A DNA stretch of 21,407 bases from positions 1-21,407 of IMG/VR virus record IMGVR_UViG_3300030430_001065; one strand, 5' to 3'. The position numbers and the translations under genes are program-made. Numbering within the stretch: position 1 is the first letter of the stretch; the number at the start of each line of letters is the position of its first letter. Of this stretch, positions 2,946 through 21,407 are shown in pieces. The stretch is from a virus. Under the pieces are notes generated by a model. That model did no database searches and was not told where the DNA came from. It worked only from the letters and a program-made list of their open reading frames with translations.

Positions 2946-3280
2946 GTCGTGATTGTAACCTCCCCAACTGAGCCTGTCATTTTATCTACAACAAAATTTG
3001 ATCCAACTATGTTTGGATCCATAGAGTTGCCTTTAGTAATATCAGTATAAACAACAACAACAAATCCTTCACCCACACCAAGGTCTTGGTTAGGTCTAGG
3101 TTTGTAAAGAGCTTCAGGATCTATTACATGAGGTAAAGGTTCTAGTTGAGGATGTTTTGGTTCAAAACATGATGGACACGTTTTTAGTCCATTCCATTCT
3201 TCTTTTAGTTGATTTAGTTTGTATTCAAAACCACATCTATCGCAGATGGCTTTTGCAAATTTACCTACTGCGTATGCCAT
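2942..3280 (-). CDS. Small virion-associated protein with four-Cys zinc site
   Basis: A 112-residue protein. CxxC pairs at C13/C16 and C35/C38 form a probable zinc-ribbon or rubredoxin-like knuckle. A Pro-rich linker follows (about 42-64), then a beta-rich C-terminus (GEGFVVVVYTDITKG, about 70-84). I recognise the opening (GKFAKAICDRCGF) from marine phage structural gene runs, where it sits beside connector genes. Zinc binding is inferred from the Cys spacing. It follows the gp4-like gene by two bases and overlaps the adaptor-like gene with ATGA, so all three are probably made together. Whether it is in the virion or is an assembly factor cannot be said. Confidence 0.6.
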   Translation of the reverse strand: MAYAVGKFAKAICDRCGFEYKLNQLKEEWNGLKTCPSCFEPKHPQLEPLPHVIDPEALYKPRPNQDLGVGEGFVVVVYTDITKGNSMDPNIVGSNFVVDKMTGSVGEVTITT

Positions 3281-4629: not shown

Positions 4630-4908
4630 TTATTTTACTTTACCTCCTTTTTTATAACCTTTAGATTTCATCATTCCGCCTTTTCTGTATCCCTTGGACT
4701 TCATCATTCCACCCATTTTCATACCTTTAGACTTCATCATGCCACCTTTCTTGTAGCCCTTAGATTTCATCATGCCACCTTTTTTGTAGCCTTTTGACTT
4801 CATCATTCCGCCCTTCTTCATGCCTTTGGATTTCATCATTCCACCCATAGCCATGCCTTTGGACTTCATTTTTCCGCCACTGCTATAGCCTTTTGTTTTT
4901 TTATACAT
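4630..4908 (-). CDS. Lys/Gly/Met tandem-repeat protein (7 x 11 residues)
   Basis: A 92-residue protein made almost wholly of repeats. After a 12-residue lead (MYKKTKGYSSGG), seven 11-residue units of the form MMKSKGYKKGG occupy residues 13-89, ending in KVK. It is extremely basic and has no hydrophobic core, so it is probably disordered and may bind nucleic acid. Similar repeat proteins occur in the structural regions of marine phages, without known function (recollection). It is one of a group of basic mini-proteins from 4630 to 6141, all read leftward and closely packed. A role in binding packaged DNA is a reasonable guess but unproven. The repeat number may vary between relatives. Confidence 0.7.
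   Translation of the reverse strand: MYKKTKGYSSGGKMKSKGMAMGGMMKSKGMKKGGMMKSKGYKKGGMMKSKGYKKGGMMKSKGMKMGGMMKSKGYRKGGMMKSKGYKKGGKVK
4642..4872 (-). repeat. 33-bp in-frame tandem repeat, 7 copies
   Basis: Seven contiguous 33-bp units encode the 11-residue repeats. The DNA copies differ mainly in the codons giving Y/M and K/R/A variation and in synonymous positions, so the array is partly diverged. Confidence 0.75.
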
Positions 4909-15656: not shown

Positions 15657-17129
15657 TCAATAATAAACTCGTTCTCTGGGTACAGGCTCATCGTCCTCTT
15701 CGTCTGACGCTAGTCTAACGAAGTTACCCTGACGAAATCTCAGTATAGCCTGAGTTGTCGAATCTACAAAATCATCGTGTTCACCGAATGGAAAGGATGC
15801 ACATTCTTCGATGACTTCTTCTGCGAAGATAGCATCCGGAGCCCAAACCATTCCTGCTTCAAACACTGGTGAAGCAGAGTGAACCCTTGTCACTTTGTCC
15901 TTCCCTTTGGTCGGTCTATAATTGACCACCGGGATTCCCATCATCCTCAACTCGTGCGTCAAAGGTGTACCACTTGCTTGGGATTCTACCAACACAATAT
16001 CTGGTTGCCAATATATAAATTCATCGTAGGCTGTGGTCTTCAAATCAGGGAAATCCCATCGCCCTCTCTTAGCATCTAGCAATATAATCGACTCAGGTGC
16101 ACCGTCACTAGGCCTGAACACACCCCACGTAGTAATCGCACTGTAGTCAGCCGTCTCCTTGGAACTAAAAGCCGTATCGTAAGACTGCAATATATACGAA
16201 CAAGGTGGCGGATCATCATGCTCCCAAATCTGCCACCAATTTCTTTTGATCAAAGCACCTTCCTCTGAAGTGGGATTCTGCATGTACTGAGCATTCCACT
16301 TCGATATAGGAATGGAAGCTTTCACAGATTCTAGCTCCTCAATCTTCCAAAAGCCCGGCCACAATGGAGTATCATCATCCAATATGGCAGGGAGTTCTAA
16401 GATCTCCCACTGATCTGCATGGTCTTCACTCATTCGCTTAATCAGCTTCTCAGTCAAATCCAAAGTGCTCCACCTCGTCATCACTATCACAATCGTCCCA
16501 CCAGGCTGTAAACGTTGGCGGGGACCAGAGGTGTACCACTCATAGGCAGACTCAAGGGCGGTGGGCGAGAGAGCATCTTGTTCTGAATGCGGATCATCAA
16601 TAATCAGAAGATCCGCACCTCGCCCTGTGATAGCTCCGCCTACGCCAGCTGCGAAGTATTCACCGCCTTTGTTGGTTTCCCATCGTCCTGCTGACTTACT
16701 GTCAGCCGATAGGCTCACCTTATCAAAGATCTGTTTGTATTCGTCTGTGTCCATGAGGTTACGCACCTTACGACCAAATCTAGCCGATAGTTCAGCGGTG
16801 TGGGTGGTCTGCATAATCTTCATGTCCGGGTTCAGTCCCATGATCCAAGATGGGAAGAACACAGAGGCAAACTCAGACTTGGTATGACGTGGGGGCATGT
16901 TAACGATGAGGCGTTTACACTTGCCTTGGGCTACACGCTCTAGCTTCTCAGCGAAAAGCCTGTGGTGTTCGCCTTCGATGAAGCCATCCCATACGTGCTT
17001 CACATACTCAATGAAGTTTGTTTGTGCTTTCTCTTTGATGCTCAGTTGTTTGATTCGATTCTGAATCATTACAATCTCTTTTAGAGCATCGTCCGAAACG
17101 TGTTTTAGATCTGTGTTTTGATCTGACAT
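15657..17129 (-). CDS. Terminase large subunit
   Basis: A 490-residue protein from ATG 17129. The ATPase half has a variant Walker A NMPPRHTKS (77-85), Walker B LLIID (174-178) followed by D179, and a coupling motif VMTRW (216-220). The nuclease half shows D318 in SYDTAFSSKETADYS, E382 in IVLVES and acidic residues in HDDFVDS (451-457), matching an RNase H-like nuclease. It is the motor that pumps DNA into the head through the portal and cuts it to length. A longer frame exists to a TTG at 17180, but no ribosome-binding site supports it. There is also none obvious before 17129, so the exact start is uncertain. No small-subunit gene is seen just upstream, where such genes usually lie. Confidence 0.93.
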   Translation of the reverse strand: MSDQNTDLKHVSDDALKEIVMIQNRIKQLSIKEKAQTNFIEYVKHVWDGFIEGEHHRLFAEKLERVAQGKCKRLIVNMPPRHTKSEFASVFFPSWIMGLNPDMKIMQTTHTAELSARFGRKVRNLMDTDEYKQIFDKVSLSADSKSAGRWETNKGGEYFAAGVGGAITGRGADLLIIDDPHSEQDALSPTALESAYEWYTSGPRQRLQPGGTIVIVMTRWSTLDLTEKLIKRMSEDHADQWEILELPAILDDDTPLWPGFWKIEELESVKASIPISKWNAQYMQNPTSEEGALIKRNWWQIWEHDDPPPCSYILQSYDTAFSSKETADYSAITTWGVFRPSDGAPESIILLDAKRGRWDFPDLKTTAYDEFIYWQPDIVLVESQASGTPLTHELRMMGIPVVNYRPTKGKDKVTRVHSASPVFEAGMVWAPDAIFAEEVIEECASFPFGEHDDFVDSTTQAILRFRQGNFVRLASDEEDDEPVPRERVYY

Positions 17130-17332
17130 ACCAAAATGTTTTTTTTTGTGTGAAATATAGTATCGCAATAGGGGTCCCAAGAGAAGAGGGGGGGGTAAAA
17201 TGGTTTTTGGGCTAATTGTAGATGTTGATAGTTATATATATATGTATATTTTTTTTGCTACCTCTTCTTATGGGGGGTGGGTGGTTAAAATTTGAGCAGT
17301 GCAAAAATCGGAACTCAATCCAATAGAGACCC
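17130..17332. other. Gene-free G-run and AT-rich region upstream of terminase
   Basis: About 200 bases with no supported gene. It holds an eight-G run (17188-17195), a six-G run (17272-17277), an alternating AT stretch (about 17232-17248) followed by eight T (17249-17256), and inverted arms AGAAGAGG (17182-17189) and CCTCTTCT (17261-17268) around 71 bases. The left part is next to the terminase start, so it must contain its leader. It could also hold the packaging start site (pac or cos), but no direct sign of cutting is visible. Confidence 0.4.
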
Positions 17333-17364
17333 AAAAAAAAAGGGAGCCGATCGGCTCCCCTTTT
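17333..17364 (-). terminator. Terminator after the Api92-like gene (bidirectional shape)
   Basis: A near-perfect palindrome GGGAGCC-GATC-GGCTCCC (17342-17359) is flanked by nine A on the left (17333-17341) and five T on the right. On the minus strand this gives a long GC stem followed by a U-run, 15 bases after the stop of the gene at 17379-17891. It would insulate the terminase block from that operon. It resembles the capsid terminator (same GGGAGC stem). Confidence 0.8.
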
Positions 17365-17378
17365 TGCCTTTACTCCTA

Positions 17379-17891
17379 TCAGGCTATTTTCTCTACCCCA
17401 TCCTCGAACTCATGCTCTGCATCCCAATCTAAGTAGAGATTATATTTATCACAATATTCTTTTATTCTCTCTGCAATTCCTCTAGGTGAATCCCAAGCAG
17501 ATAAGAAAGAGACGTAAAGAATGGACTCATCATCTTGAAGGACTTCAACCTCATAAGAATTCCACTTAGTACCCCAATGAAGACAAGCGAAGTCATACCA
17601 ATTATCAGCACCATATTCCATCATTAGATATTTTCTAGTGCTTGGATTTTTTGGTTTGTAGACTCCTCGAATGTTTTCATAATCTTCATGGTCTACTTTT
17701 TCCCCTGTTTCTATATCAAAACCGAGAGTTGCTCCTTTCTTAATTTCTTCAGGCATTGGAATAATTCCTTCAAAATCAAAATCACCTTCTTTAATATTTA
17801 AGTCGGTTTTCAATTCCTGTAGTGCTAGAATTTCTTCATCTACATTAGTGTTAGTTCCAATAGTCACAAAGTTAGTCGTATTATTTGGCAT
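17379..17891 (-). CDS. Api92/YubB-like protein (DUF1281 family)
   Basis: A 170-residue, acidic protein from ATG 17891 (GGAG seven bases upstream; a TTG start at 17903 is less likely). It has an N-terminal MPNNTTNFVTI typical of the family, then FDFEGIIPMPEEI (38-50), NWYDFACLHWGTKWNSYEV (97-115) and LSAWDSPRGIAERI (130-143). The HWGTKWN and FDFxxIIPMPEE motifs are the features I associate with the Api92-like or YubB family (DUF1281), with a ferredoxin-like fold, found on plasmids and phages, where its function is unknown. It follows the helical gene 17894-18256 by two bases, so the two share an operon. An accessory or early role is inferred. Confidence 0.7.
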   Translation of the reverse strand: MPNNTTNFVTIGTNTNVDEEILALQELKTDLNIKEGDFDFEGIIPMPEEIKKGATLGFDIETGEKVDHEDYENIRGVYKPKNPSTRKYLMMEYGADNWYDFACLHWGTKWNSYEVEVLQDDESILYVSFLSAWDSPRGIAERIKEYCDKYNLYLDWDAEHEFEDGVEKIA

Positions 17892-17893
17892 GA

Positions 17894-18256
17894 TTATCTC
17901 CAATCCTTAATTGTTAAAATAGATGATGATTTGATTTCATAAGGTGCTTTATGAGTCAGCTTAAATTTTGCTTTCTCTTTTTCACCTTCTAAAATCCCTT
18001 CAATGTTTTTCCTGTCTTTCGCCACGTGAACATCTTTCAAGTTCTGATTGGCGAATGTCTGGAAATTTTTTCTAATCCCAAACGCCAAAGGCTTTAAGAT
18101 AAGATTTTCAAGGAACATGTCTTTAATAGATTTTCTCAAATCTTGGACTATGCTTTGCCTTTCCTTGAGTTCTCTCACTTCAACAGTAAGTTCTAACTCT
18201 TGGATACGTTCTTGATTCATCTTTAGATAATCAAGTTTCTTTTTTAATGTTTCCAT
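17894..18256 (-). CDS. Helical protein of unknown function, 120 aa
   Basis: A 120-residue protein from ATG 18256. The first ~70 residues are Lys/Glu/Leu-rich helix (LKKKLDYLKMNQERIQELEL; VRELKERQSIVQDLRKSIKD), probably coiled-coil. The second half is basic, with KAKFKLTHKAPYEIKSSSIL near the end. A longer frame extends upstream, but its extra start codons lie at or beyond the predicted promoter at 18308-18313. A GGAG lies ten bases before 18256, so that start is chosen. It is the first gene of the leftward pair with the Api92-like gene. No family is recognised. Confidence 0.55.
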   Translation of the reverse strand: METLKKKLDYLKMNQERIQELELTVEVRELKERQSIVQDLRKSIKDMFLENLILKPLAFGIRKNFQTFANQNLKDVHVAKDRKNIEGILEGEKEKAKFKLTHKAPYEIKSSSILTIKDWR

Positions 18257-18293
18257 TTTTTGGTTTCTCCATTTTGTCATTTGCTTAATTGCT

Positions 18294-18310
18294 AATGAAC
18301 TACGTTCATT
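18294..18310. promoter_or_regulatory. Operator-like palindrome AATGAAC-TAC-GTTCATT
   Basis: Perfect 7-base inverted arms with a 3-base spacer. It overlaps the left end of the minus-strand -10 box and the expected start of transcription for the helical/Api92-like pair. This is the classical position for a repressor site. No regulator gene is seen in the window. Confidence 0.45.
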
Positions 18311-18313
18311 ATA
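18308..18313 (-). promoter_or_regulatory. -10 box of leftward promoter for 17894-18256
   Basis: TATAAT on the minus strand, about 50 bases before the ATG at 18256. The upstream -35 candidate is poor (TTGTTT, 16 bases away), so it may need an activator. Confidence 0.4.
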
Positions 18314-18353
18314 TAGATATACACACATAAAACAACACTTTTCTAATAAATTT

Positions 18354-18381
18354 ACACAATATTGCATTAATTATGTATAAT
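18354..18381 (+). promoter_or_regulatory. Rightward promoter with shared 14-base motif
   Basis: A perfect TATAAT (18376-18381) lies about 40 bases before the start codon at 18420. The only -35-like hexamer is TTTACA (18352-18357) with a long 19-base spacer. The sequence ACACAATATTGCAT (18354-18367), between the two, recurs inverted at 20565-20578 ahead of the other rightward cassette. It contains the palindrome CAATATTG. Confidence 0.5.
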
Positions 18382-18419
18382 GGTATTTCCATTAATAAAA
18401 CTATAAGGAGAAAATAAAA

Positions 18420-18842
18420 ATGGGAAATAGAGCCGTAATAACAATTAAAGAGGATGATATCAATGTTAATAAACAGGATTGGAATTCTCTTTATCTTCAT
18501 TGGAATGGTGGACGCGATAGCGTTGCACCATTTCTTCATGTAGCAAAACTTTATGGAATCAGATGCCAAGAAGATTCAAGCTATGCAATCGCTAGGCTTT
18601 CACAGTTGATAGGTAACTATTTTGGTGGCACGCTTTCGCTTGGCGTTGGTGCTTATAAGTCTTTGGATACTGACAATGGAGATAATGGCGTTTATGTTGT
18701 GTGGGATTGGAAGATAATCGAAAGAAGGCATTTTGATTACGAAGAACAAGATGAACATAACTTTGATGAGATGGTTAAAGATATCAGAAGTAAAAACGAT
18801 GAAGTCTTCGGATACAAAGAAGAAGAGGAGCAAGCATCGTGA
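18420..18842 (+). CDS. Conserved MGNRAVI-type protein of unknown function
   Basis: A 140-residue protein. It begins MGNRAVITIK and has LYLHWNGGRDSVAPFLHVAK (24-43), YAIARLSQLIGNYFGGTLSL (55-74) and DNGDNGVYVVWDWKIIERR (85-103). I recognise this pattern as a conserved family scattered in bacteria and phages, with no known function. Its many Trp, Gly and Asp residues suggest a compact enzyme or binding domain, but no catalytic motif is clear. The ATG follows AAGGAG by nine bases. It heads the coupled rightward cassette that runs to 19464, so it is probably an early or accessory gene. The C-terminus is acidic and Glu-rich. Confidence 0.65.
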   Translation: MGNRAVITIKEDDINVNKQDWNSLYLHWNGGRDSVAPFLHVAKLYGIRCQEDSSYAIARLSQLIGNYFGGTLSLGVGAYKSLDTDNGDNGVYVVWDWKIIERRHFDYEEQDEHNFDEMVKDIRSKNDEVFGYKEEEEQAS

Positions 18843-19003
18843 CTATGCCAAAAGAATTCCGCTTAATCAGAAAAAGAGTTATCAGAGAAGAATGCTATGT
18901 GATGGCTATGGATTGGGAGCACGCAGAAAGACTTGGACATGAAGAGGAACAAGAATGGGAACATCTGGACAGTCATGATGAAGTCGAAGTAGAGGAACAA
19001 TAG
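18839..19003 (+). CDS. Small acidic protein, 54 aa
   Basis: A 54-residue protein if it starts at GTG 18839, which overlaps the upstream TGA (GTGA) and lies eight bases after GGAG; an in-frame ATG at 18845 would give 52 residues but is 14 bases from that site. The N-terminus is basic (PKEFRLIRKRVIREECYVMA), the rest acidic and Glu/His/Asp-rich. No family is recognised. The coupling makes it a credible gene. Confidence 0.6.
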   Translation: MTMPKEFRLIRKRVIREECYVMAMDWEHAERLGHEEEQEWEHLDSHDEVEVEEQ

Positions 19004-19004
19004 C

Positions 19005-19145
19005 ATGAATGAAAATGTAAAAAACTTAGTAGATGATTTGGGTTGGGAATACCAACGCATGACATCAAGTGGAAGAGAGACATATAAAAAATTATGTCTC
19101 GAACTCGGTTGGAAGTTTGAATGGGATGATGAGGAGTTAGGATGA
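19005..19145 (+). CDS. Small protein, 46 aa
   Basis: A 46-residue protein, MNENVKNLVDDLGWEYQRMT at the start and KLCLELGWKFEWDDEEL near the end. The two LGW-x(0-1)-E/F segments (DDLGWEYQ and ELGWKFEW) look like a weak internal repeat. It starts one base after the upstream stop and its own stop overlaps the next start (ATGA). The function is unknown. Its place in the chain supports reality. Confidence 0.6.
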   Translation: MNENVKNLVDDLGWEYQRMTSSGRETYKKLCLELGWKFEWDDEELG

Positions 19146-19300
19146 TTAAAGGACTATATGGATTTATTTCAGCTTGTGCTTTAGTCGCAACTATAGCCTT
19201 GATCCCTGAGTACGTGGGGATCATACCAGGTTTTATGATCTTTCTTTGTGGTGGCCTGTTCACCTTTCTAATAACTAAAATAATTGAGGAGGAGGAATAA
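19142..19300 (+). CDS. Small two-helix membrane protein, 52 aa
   Basis: A 52-residue protein with two hydrophobic segments (about 4-21, GLYGFISACALVATIALI, and about 26-47, GIIPGFMIFLCGGLFTFLIT) joined by a short PEYV loop, ending in KIIEEEE. It is probably an inner-membrane protein. The start overlaps the previous stop by four bases, and the last codons carry GAGGAGGAGG, the ribosome-binding site for the next gene. Small membrane proteins of this kind in phages include lysis and superinfection-exclusion factors, but nothing specific can be claimed. Confidence 0.65.
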   Translation: MIKGLYGFISACALVATIALIPEYVGIIPGFMIFLCGGLFTFLITKIIEEEE

Positions 19301-19464
19301 TGAAACTAATTCAATGTCCTAAATGTATAGTTGGCCATATTGAAGAAGGAGAAGATTATTCCAATGCAACGCATATTGCTAAGTGCAATAATTGTTCATC
19401 CGAATTCTGGATCAATTACACAAAAGTTTATGACTTAGAAACTTTGAAGAATGAATATAACTAG
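19300..19464 (+). CDS. Small zinc-ribbon protein, 54 aa
   Basis: A 54-residue protein with CxxC pairs at C6/C9 (QCPKCI) and C29/C32 (KCNNCS), the spacing of a zinc ribbon. The rest is short beta-type (SEFWINYTKVYD). It shares one base with the preceding stop (TAATG) and has a strong GGAGGAGG upstream. Zinc ribbons of this size in phages may bind nucleic acids or proteins; the target is not known. It is the last gene of the rightward cassette. Confidence 0.65.
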   Translation: MKLIQCPKCIVGHIEEGEDYSNATHIAKCNNCSSEFWINYTKVYDLETLKNEYN

Positions 19465-19468
19465 AAGT

Positions 19469-19488
19469 CTGGGGGTGAAAGCCCCCAG
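19469..19488 (+). other. 7-bp GC hairpin directly after the cassette
   Basis: CTGGGGG (19469-19475) and CCCCCAG (19482-19488) with a TGAAAG loop form a perfect stem five bases after the last stop codon. No T-run follows, so it is not a normal intrinsic terminator. It could protect the mRNA 3' end or act as an RNA-binding site. Confidence 0.55.
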
Positions 19489-19503
19489 GATCCTTTGGCC
19501 TCC

Positions 19504-19541
19504 AGATCCTGGACCAGGATAGATCCCGGTATAGATCCAGG
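19504..19541. repeat. Three AGATCCNGG words plus ATCCTGG/CCAGGAT palindrome
   Basis: AGATCCTGG (19504-19512), AGATCCCGG (19521-19529) and AGATCCAGG (19533-19541) are close copies. The first overlaps a perfect inverted repeat ATCCTGG-A-CCAGGAT (19506-19520). A related CCGGATCCTGG occurs at 20357-20367. Confidence 0.5.
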
Positions 19542-19619
19542 TTTACTTCTAAGCTCGCAAATGTTAGAGTTCGCAAATCTATTTCATTAGATGGGTTTCT
19601 CCAAACCTTAGACAAAGAA

Positions 19620-19650
19620 GGCCCGGCTTAAACACCGGGTCTTTTTTTTT
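19620..19650 (+). terminator. Rightward terminator of the 18420-19464 cassette
   Basis: The stem GGCCCGG/CCGGGTC (7 bp with one G-U) and loop CTTAAACA are followed by nine T (19642-19650). It is a strong intrinsic terminator, though 156 bases beyond the last stop codon, so the mRNA has a long 3' tail that includes the hairpin and GATC repeats. Confidence 0.8.
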
Positions 19651-19651
19651 A

Positions 19652-19696
19652 GACGCACCGGGTCGCAAGTTACGGACCAGATCGCAAGTGCCGGAC
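19652..19696 (+). repeat. CGCA-core direct repeats (left cluster)
   Basis: GGTCGCAAGTTACGGAC (19661-19677) and GATCGCAAGTGCCGGAC (19680-19696) are direct copies with three mismatches in 17. The preceding GACGCACC joins the first to give GACGCACCGGGTCGCAAG (19652-19669), which matches GACGCACGAGGTCGCAAA at 20457-20474 in 15 of 18 bases. The left and right clusters therefore belong to one repeat family on both sides of the gene at 19740-20102. Confidence 0.6.
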
Positions 19697-19699
19697 ATA

Positions 19700-19727
19700 A
19701 AAAAACCCGGACTAAGCCGGGTTTTTT
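19700..19727. terminator. Bidirectional terminator AAAAAACCCGG-CCGGGTTTTTT
   Basis: CCCGG (19706-19710), loop ACTAAG and CCGGG (19717-19721) are flanked by six A and six T, so it works on either strand. It lies 12 bases beyond the stop of the leftward gene at 19740-20102 and would end that transcript. Confidence 0.8.
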
Positions 19728-19739
19728 ATCTAGCTACTT

Positions 19740-20102
19740 TTAGCAGTCAGTAAAGATTACGTCAAAGCCCCAATAACATTCCAAATACCAATCATGGGGA
19801 TTGCTCATCATGTCATAGCTTTCTGGGTGAGAGCCTATGGAATATCCTACGCCCCATTCCCATGGACCGGCCTCAAAGCATACCCAAATATCACCCTCGC
19901 TGATCTCTTCATAGTTTTCATGATCGCTAGTCATAAATACTTCTGTATCTGGATCAAAGCCCATTCTTTCAGCTTGCTTTCTCAAAGCTTGATAAAGCTG
20001 GTTAGCTGCGTCCTCTTTAGATACAGCTTTAGTTTTTAGATCTGGCAGTAAAGTTGGATCTAATGTTTGATGATAATCAAATTTATTTTTTGCATTTTGC
20101 AT
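19740..20102 (-). CDS. Isolated leftward protein, 120 aa, unknown function
   Basis: A 120-residue, acidic protein from ATG 20102 (GGAG seven bases upstream; a TTG start at 20126 lies at the transcription start and is unlikely). The N-terminal third is helical (SKEDAANQLYQALRKQAERM). The second part is Trp- and acid-rich, with ISEGDIWVCFEAGPWEWGVG and HDWYLECYWGFDVIFTDC at the end. I do not recognise it. It is a single-gene unit with an extended -10 promoter and a bidirectional terminator, and it stands between the two CGCA repeat clusters, so a link to their function should be considered. Confidence 0.6.
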   Translation of the reverse strand: MQNAKNKFDYHQTLDPTLLPDLKTKAVSKEDAANQLYQALRKQAERMGFDPDTEVFMTSDHENYEEISEGDIWVCFEAGPWEWGVGYSIGSHPESYDMMSNPHDWYLECYWGFDVIFTDC

Positions 20103-20130
20103 ATTGTTTCTCCAATTATTAAACAAAATA

Positions 20131-20139
20131 ATTATAACA
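20131..20139 (-). promoter_or_regulatory. Extended -10 promoter for 19740-20102
   Basis: TGTTATAAT on the minus strand is a perfect TGnTATAAT extended -10 box. The -35 region is poor (CACACA). The predicted start is a few bases before 20124, leaving a short leader with GGAG before the ATG at 20102. Confidence 0.55.
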
Positions 20140-20166
20140 AATAAGTGTAGATTTGTGTGTAAAAGT

Positions 20167-20175
20167 TGCTATAAT
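20167..20175 (+). promoter_or_regulatory. Extended -10 promoter for a structured transcript
   Basis: TGCTATAAT is a perfect extended -10 box. There is no good -35, which this promoter type tolerates. Transcription would start near 20182, directly at the 5' arm of the predicted RNA stem, and end at the terminator 20326-20353. It is divergent to the leftward promoter at 20131. Confidence 0.55.
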
Positions 20176-20181
20176 ATGCAA

Positions 20182-20353
20182 ATAGTTAGGTGGGAGTGAG
20201 CCTTTGTAAAATCCAATCGAAGAGAGAGGTTAAGGATAAAAGTAAATGAGAACTAGACCACCATGCACTACCTAGCTAGAGGATCTACCGGGACCCGCAA
20301 GCTTGAGCCGGGTAGCTCCGAAGTTAAGCCCGGCCTTATCCGGGCTTTTCTTT
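20182..20353 (+). ncRNA. Candidate ~170-nt structured small RNA or attenuator leader
   Basis: The 5' arm AGTTAGGT (20184-20191) pairs with ACCTAGCT (20270-20277), and AGTG (20195-20198) with CACT (20266-20269), so the predicted transcript starts and closes a long-range stem. A second stem pairs GGA-CTACC (20281-20289) with GGTAG-TCC (20311-20319). The terminator stem follows at 20326. A nine-codon frame (20246-20275, MRTRPPCTT) with AAGGA nine bases upstream ends inside the 3' arm of the first stem. A ribosome there would open that stem, as in attenuators. No named RNA family is recognised, and pairing was done by eye only. Confidence 0.4.
20326..20353 (+). terminator. Terminator of the RNA candidate
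   Basis: AAGCCCGG (20326-20333), loop CCTTAT and CCGGGCTT (20340-20347) are followed by TTCTTT. The eight-pair GC-rich stem with a T-rich tail is a good rightward intrinsic terminator. No protein gene of ordinary length ends before it, which supports a non-coding or leader transcript. Confidence 0.75.
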
Positions 20354-20375
20354 GTCCGGATCCTGGCCCGGATCA

Positions 20376-20475
20376 CGCTAAGGCACGCACAAGCTCGCAA
20401 GTTCTGATCTATAGAACGCAAAAGGTCGCAAAAATATACCCATCTGGACGCACAAGGACGCACGAGGTCGCAAAA
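20376..20475 (+). repeat. Helically phased CGCA iteron-like array
   Basis: Eight units approximating G-(G/C/A)-(T/A)-CGCA-(A/C)-AA have CGC cores starting at 20376, 20386, 20396, 20417, 20427, 20449, 20459 and 20469. The steps are 10, 10, 21, 10, 22, 10 and 10 bases, that is, one or two helical turns each. The clearest run is GGACGCACAA, GGACGCACGA, GGTCGCAAAA (20446-20475). Between the second and third groups of cores lies GTTCT-GATCTAT-AGAAC (20401-20417). An AT-rich stretch follows at about 20500. Confidence 0.65.
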
Positions 20476-20564
20476 ATTGTGGGGTGGTGGCTCTGTGTGT
20501 AGGGAAATGCAAATAAATACTTAAAAACTGCAACTTTTATTTATCCGTGTTTATCTTGTGTGTT

Positions 20565-20578
20565 ATGCAATATTGTGT
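20565..20578 (-). promoter_or_regulatory. Inverted copy of the 14-base motif at 18354-18367
   Basis: ATGCAATATTGTGT here is the exact reverse complement of ACACAATATTGCAT in the divergent promoter region at 18354. Each copy lies some 50-70 bases ahead of a rightward cassette (18420 and 20637), suggesting a shared regulator or promoter element. The core CAATATTG is itself palindromic. Confidence 0.4.
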
Positions 20579-20636
20579 GACTTTTGTGTTTTAATGTGCT
20601 AATCTATGCGTACATTAATTAAAGGAGAAACAACTA

Positions 20637-21113
20637 ATGGAAAAATTAACTAAAGAAGAATATTTCAATTTAGATAATGGGATTGTTCAAGATATAACAA
20701 GGGAATTTATAACACCCCATATTTATAGAAATCAATCTTCACTTATAACCCACTTACAAGAAAACTATGTTGAAGGTTTTAATTTTGATGATATAGAAAA
20801 CCTCTATATGACTGATTCTGACATCTTAAATTACTTTGGCTCGTATGATGAAGATATGAGCGATCAAGAACTAATTGATGAAGCAAGAAACAACGGCGAA
20901 GATATGAATGAAATCTTTGAATGGTATCTTGTTTCAGATTGGTTTCTTGAGAGACTAAGAGAAATAAACGAACCAATAATTGACAATGATTATGGCGAAT
21001 ACTGGGGAAGATGTTGCACAGGGCAATCCATATATCTTGACCATAATATACAAAAACTCGCCTATGAATGGGCAAGCGATGAGCGACTATACAAAGATGA
21101 GGAGGTCGCCTAA
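20637..21113 (+). CDS. Conserved unknown protein with YWGR-TGQ motif
   Basis: A 158-residue acidic protein. The first half is helical and rich in Asp, Glu and Tyr. The conserved-looking core is VSDWFLERLREINEPIIDND (99-118) followed by YGEYWGRCCTGQSIYLD (119-135). I remember similar YGxWWGRTxTGQ motifs in unassigned proteins of plasmids and phages. No catalytic motif is clear. The ATG follows AAAGGAG by about ten bases, and the stop overlaps the next start (TAATG). It heads the second rightward cassette, downstream of the AT-rich stretch. Confidence 0.62.
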   Translation: MEKLTKEEYFNLDNGIVQDITREFITPHIYRNQSSLITHLQENYVEGFNFDDIENLYMTDSDILNYFGSYDEDMSDQELIDEARNNGEDMNEIFEWYLVSDWFLERLREINEPIIDNDYGEYWGRCCTGQSIYLDHNIQKLAYEWASDERLYKDEEVA

Positions 21114-21259
21114 TGAAAATAAACCAAAAGAAACTGAAAGAATTAAACTCCATTAAAGATACTCAAAAGGCTATGGACTTTATTCTTGCACATGATCCAT
21201 TAAATATAATAACGATTAAAAAGGAGAGAAACCAATGGAAGATAAAAAAGCATTCATAA
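21113..21259 (+). CDS. Small basic protein, 48 aa
   Basis: A 48-residue, Lys-rich, helical protein starting MKINQKKLKELNSIKDTQKA. It shares one base with the preceding stop, and GAGGAGG lies close upstream. The next gene starts inside its last codons in another frame (21235). No family is recognised. Coupling on both sides supports reality. Confidence 0.55.
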   Translation: MKINQKKLKELNSIKDTQKAMDFILAHDPLNIITIKKERNQWKIKKHS

Positions 21260-21369
21260 GTGAGGAACGCAACACTTATGAAGAAGAGGAACGCAACTTA
21301 TATTGTCTTTGCGGAAAACTAAAAACCAAATGCGCAGATTTATACGCACATACAACCGGAGGCGCATGA
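21235..21369 (+). CDS. Small acidic protein with CxC motif, 44 aa
   Basis: A 44-residue protein beginning MEDKKAFISEERNTYEEEER with Cys at 24, 26 and 33 (LYCLCGKLKTKC), too few for a standard zinc ribbon. The two EERN-x-Y segments come from a 12-base direct repeat GAGGAACGCAAC (21262-21273 and 21286-21297), and each copy contains ACGCAA, as in the array at 20376-20475. It starts about nine bases after AAGGAG inside the previous gene. The function is unknown. Confidence 0.55.
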   Translation: MEDKKAFISEERNTYEEEERNLYCLCGKLKTKCADLYAHTTGGA

Positions 21370-21407
21370 TGTCAGAACAACCAATCACACAAGACGAAAG
21401 AGAAGAA
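21366..21407 (+). CDS. Start of a further cassette gene (truncated by window edge)
   Basis: Fourteen codons are visible (MMSEQPITQDEREE). GGAGG ends at 21362, so the second Met (21369) is better spaced than the first (21366), which overlaps the previous stop as ATGA. Too short for any identification. Confidence 0.45.
   Translation, partial: MMSEQPITQDEREE

Follow-up and report, generated by a model that had tools for sequence, protein, structure and literature searches.

Several well-described systems use arrays of short direct repeats. Regulators of the OmpR/PhoB type recognise a pair of short cores that point the same way, 10–11 bp apart and upstream of σ70 promoters, and their sites are often present in multiple copies. 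Ribbon-helix-helix proteins such as omega of pSM19035 and ParR bind cooperatively to contiguous arrays of 7–11-bp direct repeats upstream of promoters. Iteron origins (RK2, P1, the ori/crr of phage P4) place short direct repeats beside an AT-rich box and a promoter, and stoperators share one orientation, their word varying from subgroup to subgroup. Cluster A mycobacteriophages carry asymmetric stop sites that are specific to the phage (PMC9283540), and in SPP1 the pac site is found immediately 5′ of terS (PMC4737164).

Here we analyse a repeat array, termed array A, within a 21,407-nt fragment of a viral contig (IMG/VR record IMGVR_UViG_3300030430_001065, positions 1 to 21,407; hereafter the window). 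The genes for TerL, portal and major capsid protein all lie on the − strand of this fragment. Its named relatives are the Pelagibacter phages HTVC023P and HTVC027P, phage 023Pt_psg01 and DSL-LC04, with 59–61% identity to the window in TerL and 63–70% in the capsid protein. The phage of the window is related to pelagiphages HTVC023P and HTVC027P. The array is located in the terS–terL interval, which is crowded with small genes lacking an assigned function. When phage records were searched at the DNA level, the array region gave no matches, and a host search gave a single, uninformative match on a MAG contig. Rfam and tRNA scans yielded nothing above threshold, the Rfam matches being sub-threshold only, and the HTVC023P-type genome paper, searched for repeats, intergenic features and origin features, gave no mention of them.

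We propose that the array is an upstream regulatory (enhancer or operator) array for a putative, probably phage-encoded protein, and assign this reading a probability of roughly 0.55. The likeness to OmpR/PhoB-type sites lies in same-orientation core pairs about one helical turn apart upstream of σ70 promoters; the differences are that the phages yielded no response regulator, that arrays comprise up to 10 units and that the word varies by lineage. Arrays with a 7-bp repeat in HTVC027P recall the omega heptads, but no ribbon-helix-helix gene was identified, the arrays are scattered across a phage island, with array A fixed to a GATAA box. With Cluster A stoperators the array shares asymmetric, phage-specific sites in intergenic DNA (PMC9283540, PMC6550527). 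The cassette to which the array belongs would add a further form to the short-repeat control sites already described.

A densely phased array of CGCA units

Array A (20376–20475, + strand) consists of 10-bp units with a CGCA core, giving the consensus TTTTGCGWYCT on the other strand, which has the sense of terL, and is kept in relatives. A first-pass annotation, made by a model from the sequence alone, had described eight CGCA units here, all facing the same side of the helix. Direct reading and a script found CGC cores at all eight positions. Seven of these are CGCA (20386, 20396, 20417, 20427, 20449, 20459 and 20469); the eighth, at 20376, is a degenerate CGCT that close kin do not retain, so the array is better described as seven good units and one degenerate unit. 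The steps between units are 10, 10, 21, 10, 22, 10 and 10 bp.

The intergenic region 20127–20636 contains eight CGCA words, four pairs at exactly 10 bp and seven units within 100 bp. Dinucleotide-preserving shuffling of this region (5000 replicates) gave corresponding means of 1.25, 0.00 and 0.94, and none of the 5000 reached any of the three values. The cluster is thus far beyond chance, and the annotation's observation is confirmed. Array A is also the densest 10-bp-phased cluster of any 4-mer in the whole window, with four pairs compared to one or two in 60 shuffled windows. A terminator-like hairpin (20326–20347, + strand) points at the array and has a similar counterpart at the matching edge in relatives. 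The position of this hairpin suggests array A is shielded from incoming transcription.

The array is linked to a promoter and an exchangeable gene

Sequence comparison places array A in a rigid cassette common to a group of marine-type phages. Read toward the gene, the cassette is composed of the array of 10-bp units, an interval of 82–83 bp, the GATAA box with its A-tract, a −10 box, an RBS and an ATG. The window carries a conserved spacer block (20476–20519, + strand; TGTGGGGTGGTGGCTCTGTGTGTAGGGAAATGCAAATAAATA, or TATTTGCATTTCCC...CAGAG on the other strand) between the array and a double GATAA box with A-tract (20535–20555, − strand; GATAAACACGGATAAATAAAA), which is situated 83 bp from the first array unit. 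Alignment of 13 sequences showed that the GATAA-N5-GATAA box with its A-tract is invariant and that its distance to the first unit is fixed.

The whole viral collection was scanned for a GATAA box followed by TTTTGCG, which returned 41 contigs; six more were checked, giving 47. A strict 19-nt pair pattern had given many unrelated chance matches on viral contigs, hence the use of the cassette pattern instead. All 47 contigs, many of which are close relatives (we estimate about a dozen independent lineages), contain at least four TGCG units within the next 130 bp. The distance between box and array is 82–83 bp in 44 of the 47, and in most of them TATAAT (−10) starts 125–127 nt from the first array unit. 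An RBS and ATG are found at about 155–165 from the array. Relatives display TTGAAT or TTGAAA-16-TATAAT at the matching promoter distance. The equivalent position in the window (20577–20605, + strand) reads GTGACT-17-TAATCT, which is degenerate, and a consensus promoter scan of the window found no promoter there.

The gene downstream of the cassette in the window (20637–21113, + strand) encodes a 158-aa protein assigned to phrog_26364. Across phages this slot is occupied by 12 unrelated gene families, GP88 (PF17338) among them. The conserved cassette is real and probably regulatory, and the annotation's general description, of short direct repeats in phase that form a cis-acting site beside an AT-rich stretch, is supported. 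L012, a contig where a relative of the 20637 gene occurs, carries different arrays, with ATTTGC every 17 bp, at 958–1111 and 2984–3052.

Spacing is kept in close kin while the word changes between lineages

The closest kin of the window (TerL 96–98% identical) retain the array with the window's spacing. Steps are 10, 10, 22, 10, 21 and 10 bp in L016, identical with one extra pair in L015, and 10, 10, 22, 10, 20 and 10 bp in L106 and L181; pairs have been gained or lost in L106, L181, L114 and L162. The TGCG core is constant in relatives while the letters between cores drift. The expectation that spacing would be kept as sequence drifts is therefore borne out in the closest kin, in L016 and in L106/L181.

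The unit consensus was drawn from 117 units in 17 arrays; of the 100 gaps between neighbouring units, 49 measure exactly 10 bp and the remainder range from 4 to 38 bp, which identifies the 10-bp pair as the conserved unit. Same-face phasing thus holds in the window's kin but does not extend to other lineages, with their gaps of 4 to 38 bp. Helical phase as a general rule was rejected: the distribution of pair distances peaks only broadly, around 10.75 bp (R 0.39), and R is at most 0.28 once the 10-bp pairs are removed.

Other lineages present other words in the matching interval: CCCGAC (L005), GCTTG every 7 bp (HTVC027P), GCTCG (023Pt_psg01) and CCGTG(G) (DSL-LC04). This change of word between lineages suggests that the binder is phage-encoded and co-evolving. 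Almost all HTVC027P GCTTG words with a near partner (17/18) lie on one strand and within 16506–17726. Two of the three GCTTG arrays adjoin perfect TTGACA −35 boxes, which precede gp34 and gp33, the latter a GP88 homologue. HTVC027P RNA-seq reports exactly gp33 and gp34 as an extra temporal cluster, high at 6–9 h (PMC12753301). This shared temporal class is suggestive of array control, although the two genes are adjacent and the agreement is weaker than it appears.

Proposed role of the array

Further arrays support a link to promoters. Secondary arrays are positioned 51–64 bp upstream of a −10 box of equal polarity in L046, L053, L047, L085, L076 and L091. A consensus promoter occurs within 30–170 nt on one side of 14 of 22 arrays and on the other side of only one, with 2.0 expected for random positions. 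Promoters do not adjoin array B of the window (described below) or the array at 6504 of L048, both of which occupy convergent gaps, or the longest array of HTVC027P, at 16506. These promoterless arrays, together with the far-from-consensus promoter of the window, weigh against the promoter-control reading.

Under the proposed mechanism, several copies of a sequence-specific DNA-binding protein would sit side by side and in a single orientation on the 10-bp TTTTGCGWYCT units, binding cooperatively where units are 10 bp apart. The array and the double GATAA/A-tract box, with the reader of that box, would control a σ70-type promoter ~125–127 bp away. This promoter would drive whichever accessory gene fills the slot (the 20637 gene in the window), and similar arrays would control other promoters of equal polarity between terS and terL. 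As the units lie upstream at fixed distances and do not overlap the promoter, activation or enhancement is likelier than steric repression. Of the three functions the annotation had listed, namely an iteron-type origin, a partition site and a cooperative enhancer, comparative data favour the enhancer, ahead of the origin.

The annotation had put forward the isolated gene at 19740 as a candidate for the binding protein. This 128-aa ORF (19740–20126, − strand) has no family match and no homologue in a close relative that keeps the array, and is unlikely to be the binder. An HTH_60-like 71-aa protein of one relative, the one weak HTH match, was also rejected, being present in that phage only. Scans of the contigs against Pfam, PHROGs and NCBIfam gave no DNA-binding regulator candidate; many of the small proteins are unannotated.

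A more speculative extension, and one we hold only tentatively, is that of a plug-in cassette. Array, box and promoter would be read by a fast-diversifying phage regulator with a private word in each lineage (TTGCG, CCCGAC, GCTTG, GCTCG), and accessory genes would be swapped behind one switch that rivals cannot read. A readable binding word predicts co-regulated accessory genes and could provide bait DNA for the regulator, and the cassette illustrates a way for accessory genes to be exchanged in a phage that retains a single switch.

Replication origin and packaging site as alternatives

The array could alternatively belong to a replication origin, with the units as iterons for a phage initiator, the GATAA/A-tract box as an unwinding element and the promoter providing transcriptional activation. 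Here, as in iteron origins, short direct repeats stand beside an AT-rich box and a promoter, and for array A the invariant box at a rigid 82–83 bp resembles the pairing of iterons with an unwinding element. Shielding of the array by the terminator would also suit an origin. Relatives with the TTGCG word encode a PrimPol/AAA_25 protein, which could plausibly act as the initiator, and the replication proteins of HTVC027P, which has another word, are different; however, replication modules and words both track phylogeny, so this match is not independent. The repeats are shorter than typical iterons, the phages contain at least two arrays each, placed before different promoters, and the secondary arrays have no GATAA box. 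The HTVC027P arrays adjoin −35 boxes with no AT-rich spacer. A near-DnaA box noted in the first-pass annotation proves to be half of the invariant double GATAA box: the TTATC cores are invariant, but the remaining letters of the 9-mers vary between lineages, and hence the site does not behave as a DnaA box, which argues against an origin. GC skew, suggested as a check, tracks coding direction only in the three related genomes HTVC027P, HTVC023P and DSL-LC04 and gives no origin signal. An origin is therefore unlikely and, given several arrays per phage before different promoters, neither it nor a partition site is specifically indicated.

A packaging site is less probable still. TerS rings would dock on the array, its one-turn repeats matching the HTH domains of the ring, and headful packaging would start toward terL. 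The arrays are indeed limited to the terS–terL interval and are on the terS/terL strand, a Terminase_2-family TerS is encoded by array-bearing contigs long enough to show it, and one-turn repeats would suit ring wrapping. The combination of direct repeats with a phage TerS matching a terminase small-subunit family also resembles the SPP1/SF6 pac site (PMC4737164). In contrast to that site, the arrays lie kilobases downstream of terS, neither within nor next to it, and are promoter-linked, and packaging does not call for the arrays to be rigidly coupled to a promoter with an exchangeable gene. In addition, the 7-bp spacing of HTVC027P does not fit one-turn docking, and the DNA-binding domain of SF6 TerS showed little sequence specificity for pac repeats (PMC4737164), which further counts against this reading. 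The repeat element immediately 5′ of terS is of another kind. In L225 (7500–7830), L220 (7590–7900) and L215 (2700–2900), conserved non-coding DNA with many GTGCA/TGCAC words occupies this position; it is separate from the arrays and a candidate for a pac site or an origin. Directly 3′ of terS, a gene for the exonuclease VII small subunit (PF02609) is present in L215 (3384–3716) and L048 (247–519).

A second array, strand bias and words within genes

Five more CGCA units (19556, 19572, 19654, 19664 and 19683) form array B (19556–19690, + strand), 0.8 kb to the left of array A. Its units lie between and around a pair of terminator-like hairpins in the gap between convergent genes, and in the window the array is not promoter-linked; its layout is identical in L016, L106 and L181. 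The region 17181–21407, upstream of terL, also displays a strong strand bias, with 22 TGCG words in the terL sense and four CGCA. Neither array B nor the strand bias appears in the first-pass annotation. Pair matches are similarly confined to one strand, on which they occur in 12/14 and 13/13 contigs; a search of 26 distinct contigs returned none for the other strand. On long contigs, they fall within the terS–terL interval only.

The CGCA word exceeds synonymous-codon shuffles in island coding sequence, in one orientation only, in L225, L048, L091, L055, L106 and L030 (z 2.3–4.5). By the same shuffles, no enrichment was seen in L215, L223 or the window. An initial z of about 8 derived partly from spurious ORFs over arrays, and the filtered result is modest. 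The enrichment is confined to island genes and does not extend to late or early genes. Promoter control alone does not explain it.

Stoperator-like roadblocks, at which a bound repressor would halt or insulate transcription across the island, would account for this enrichment of words inside island genes, for the uniform, one-way orientation and for the arrays beside terminators and in convergent gaps, but we judge them the most doubtful of the readings, given that stoperators are single and dispersed whereas the units here form phased clusters rigidly linked to promoters, that the promoter stands at a fixed distance and faces away from the array, which favours promoter control, and that the contigs examined showed no immunity repressor.

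Other features of the window and its relatives

Between 20180 and 20350 (+ strand), a TATAAT-like box is followed by a stretch free of convincing genes and then by a terminator hairpin. This stretch possibly encodes a small RNA of ~170 nt, for which there is no Rfam match. A sub-threshold Rfam match to Trp_leader at 19697–19796 (− strand; 31.3 bits against a cut-off of 41) is probably merely a terminator hairpin. Elsewhere in the window (4630–4908), 33-bp repeats encode a repetitive small protein of the MMKSKGYKKGG type. Finally, L216 and L217 (contig of L061) correspond to a relative that has the curli genes CsgG and CsgF as well as a cyclase domain; curli genes have also been reported for uncultivated pelagiphages (PMC9599517).
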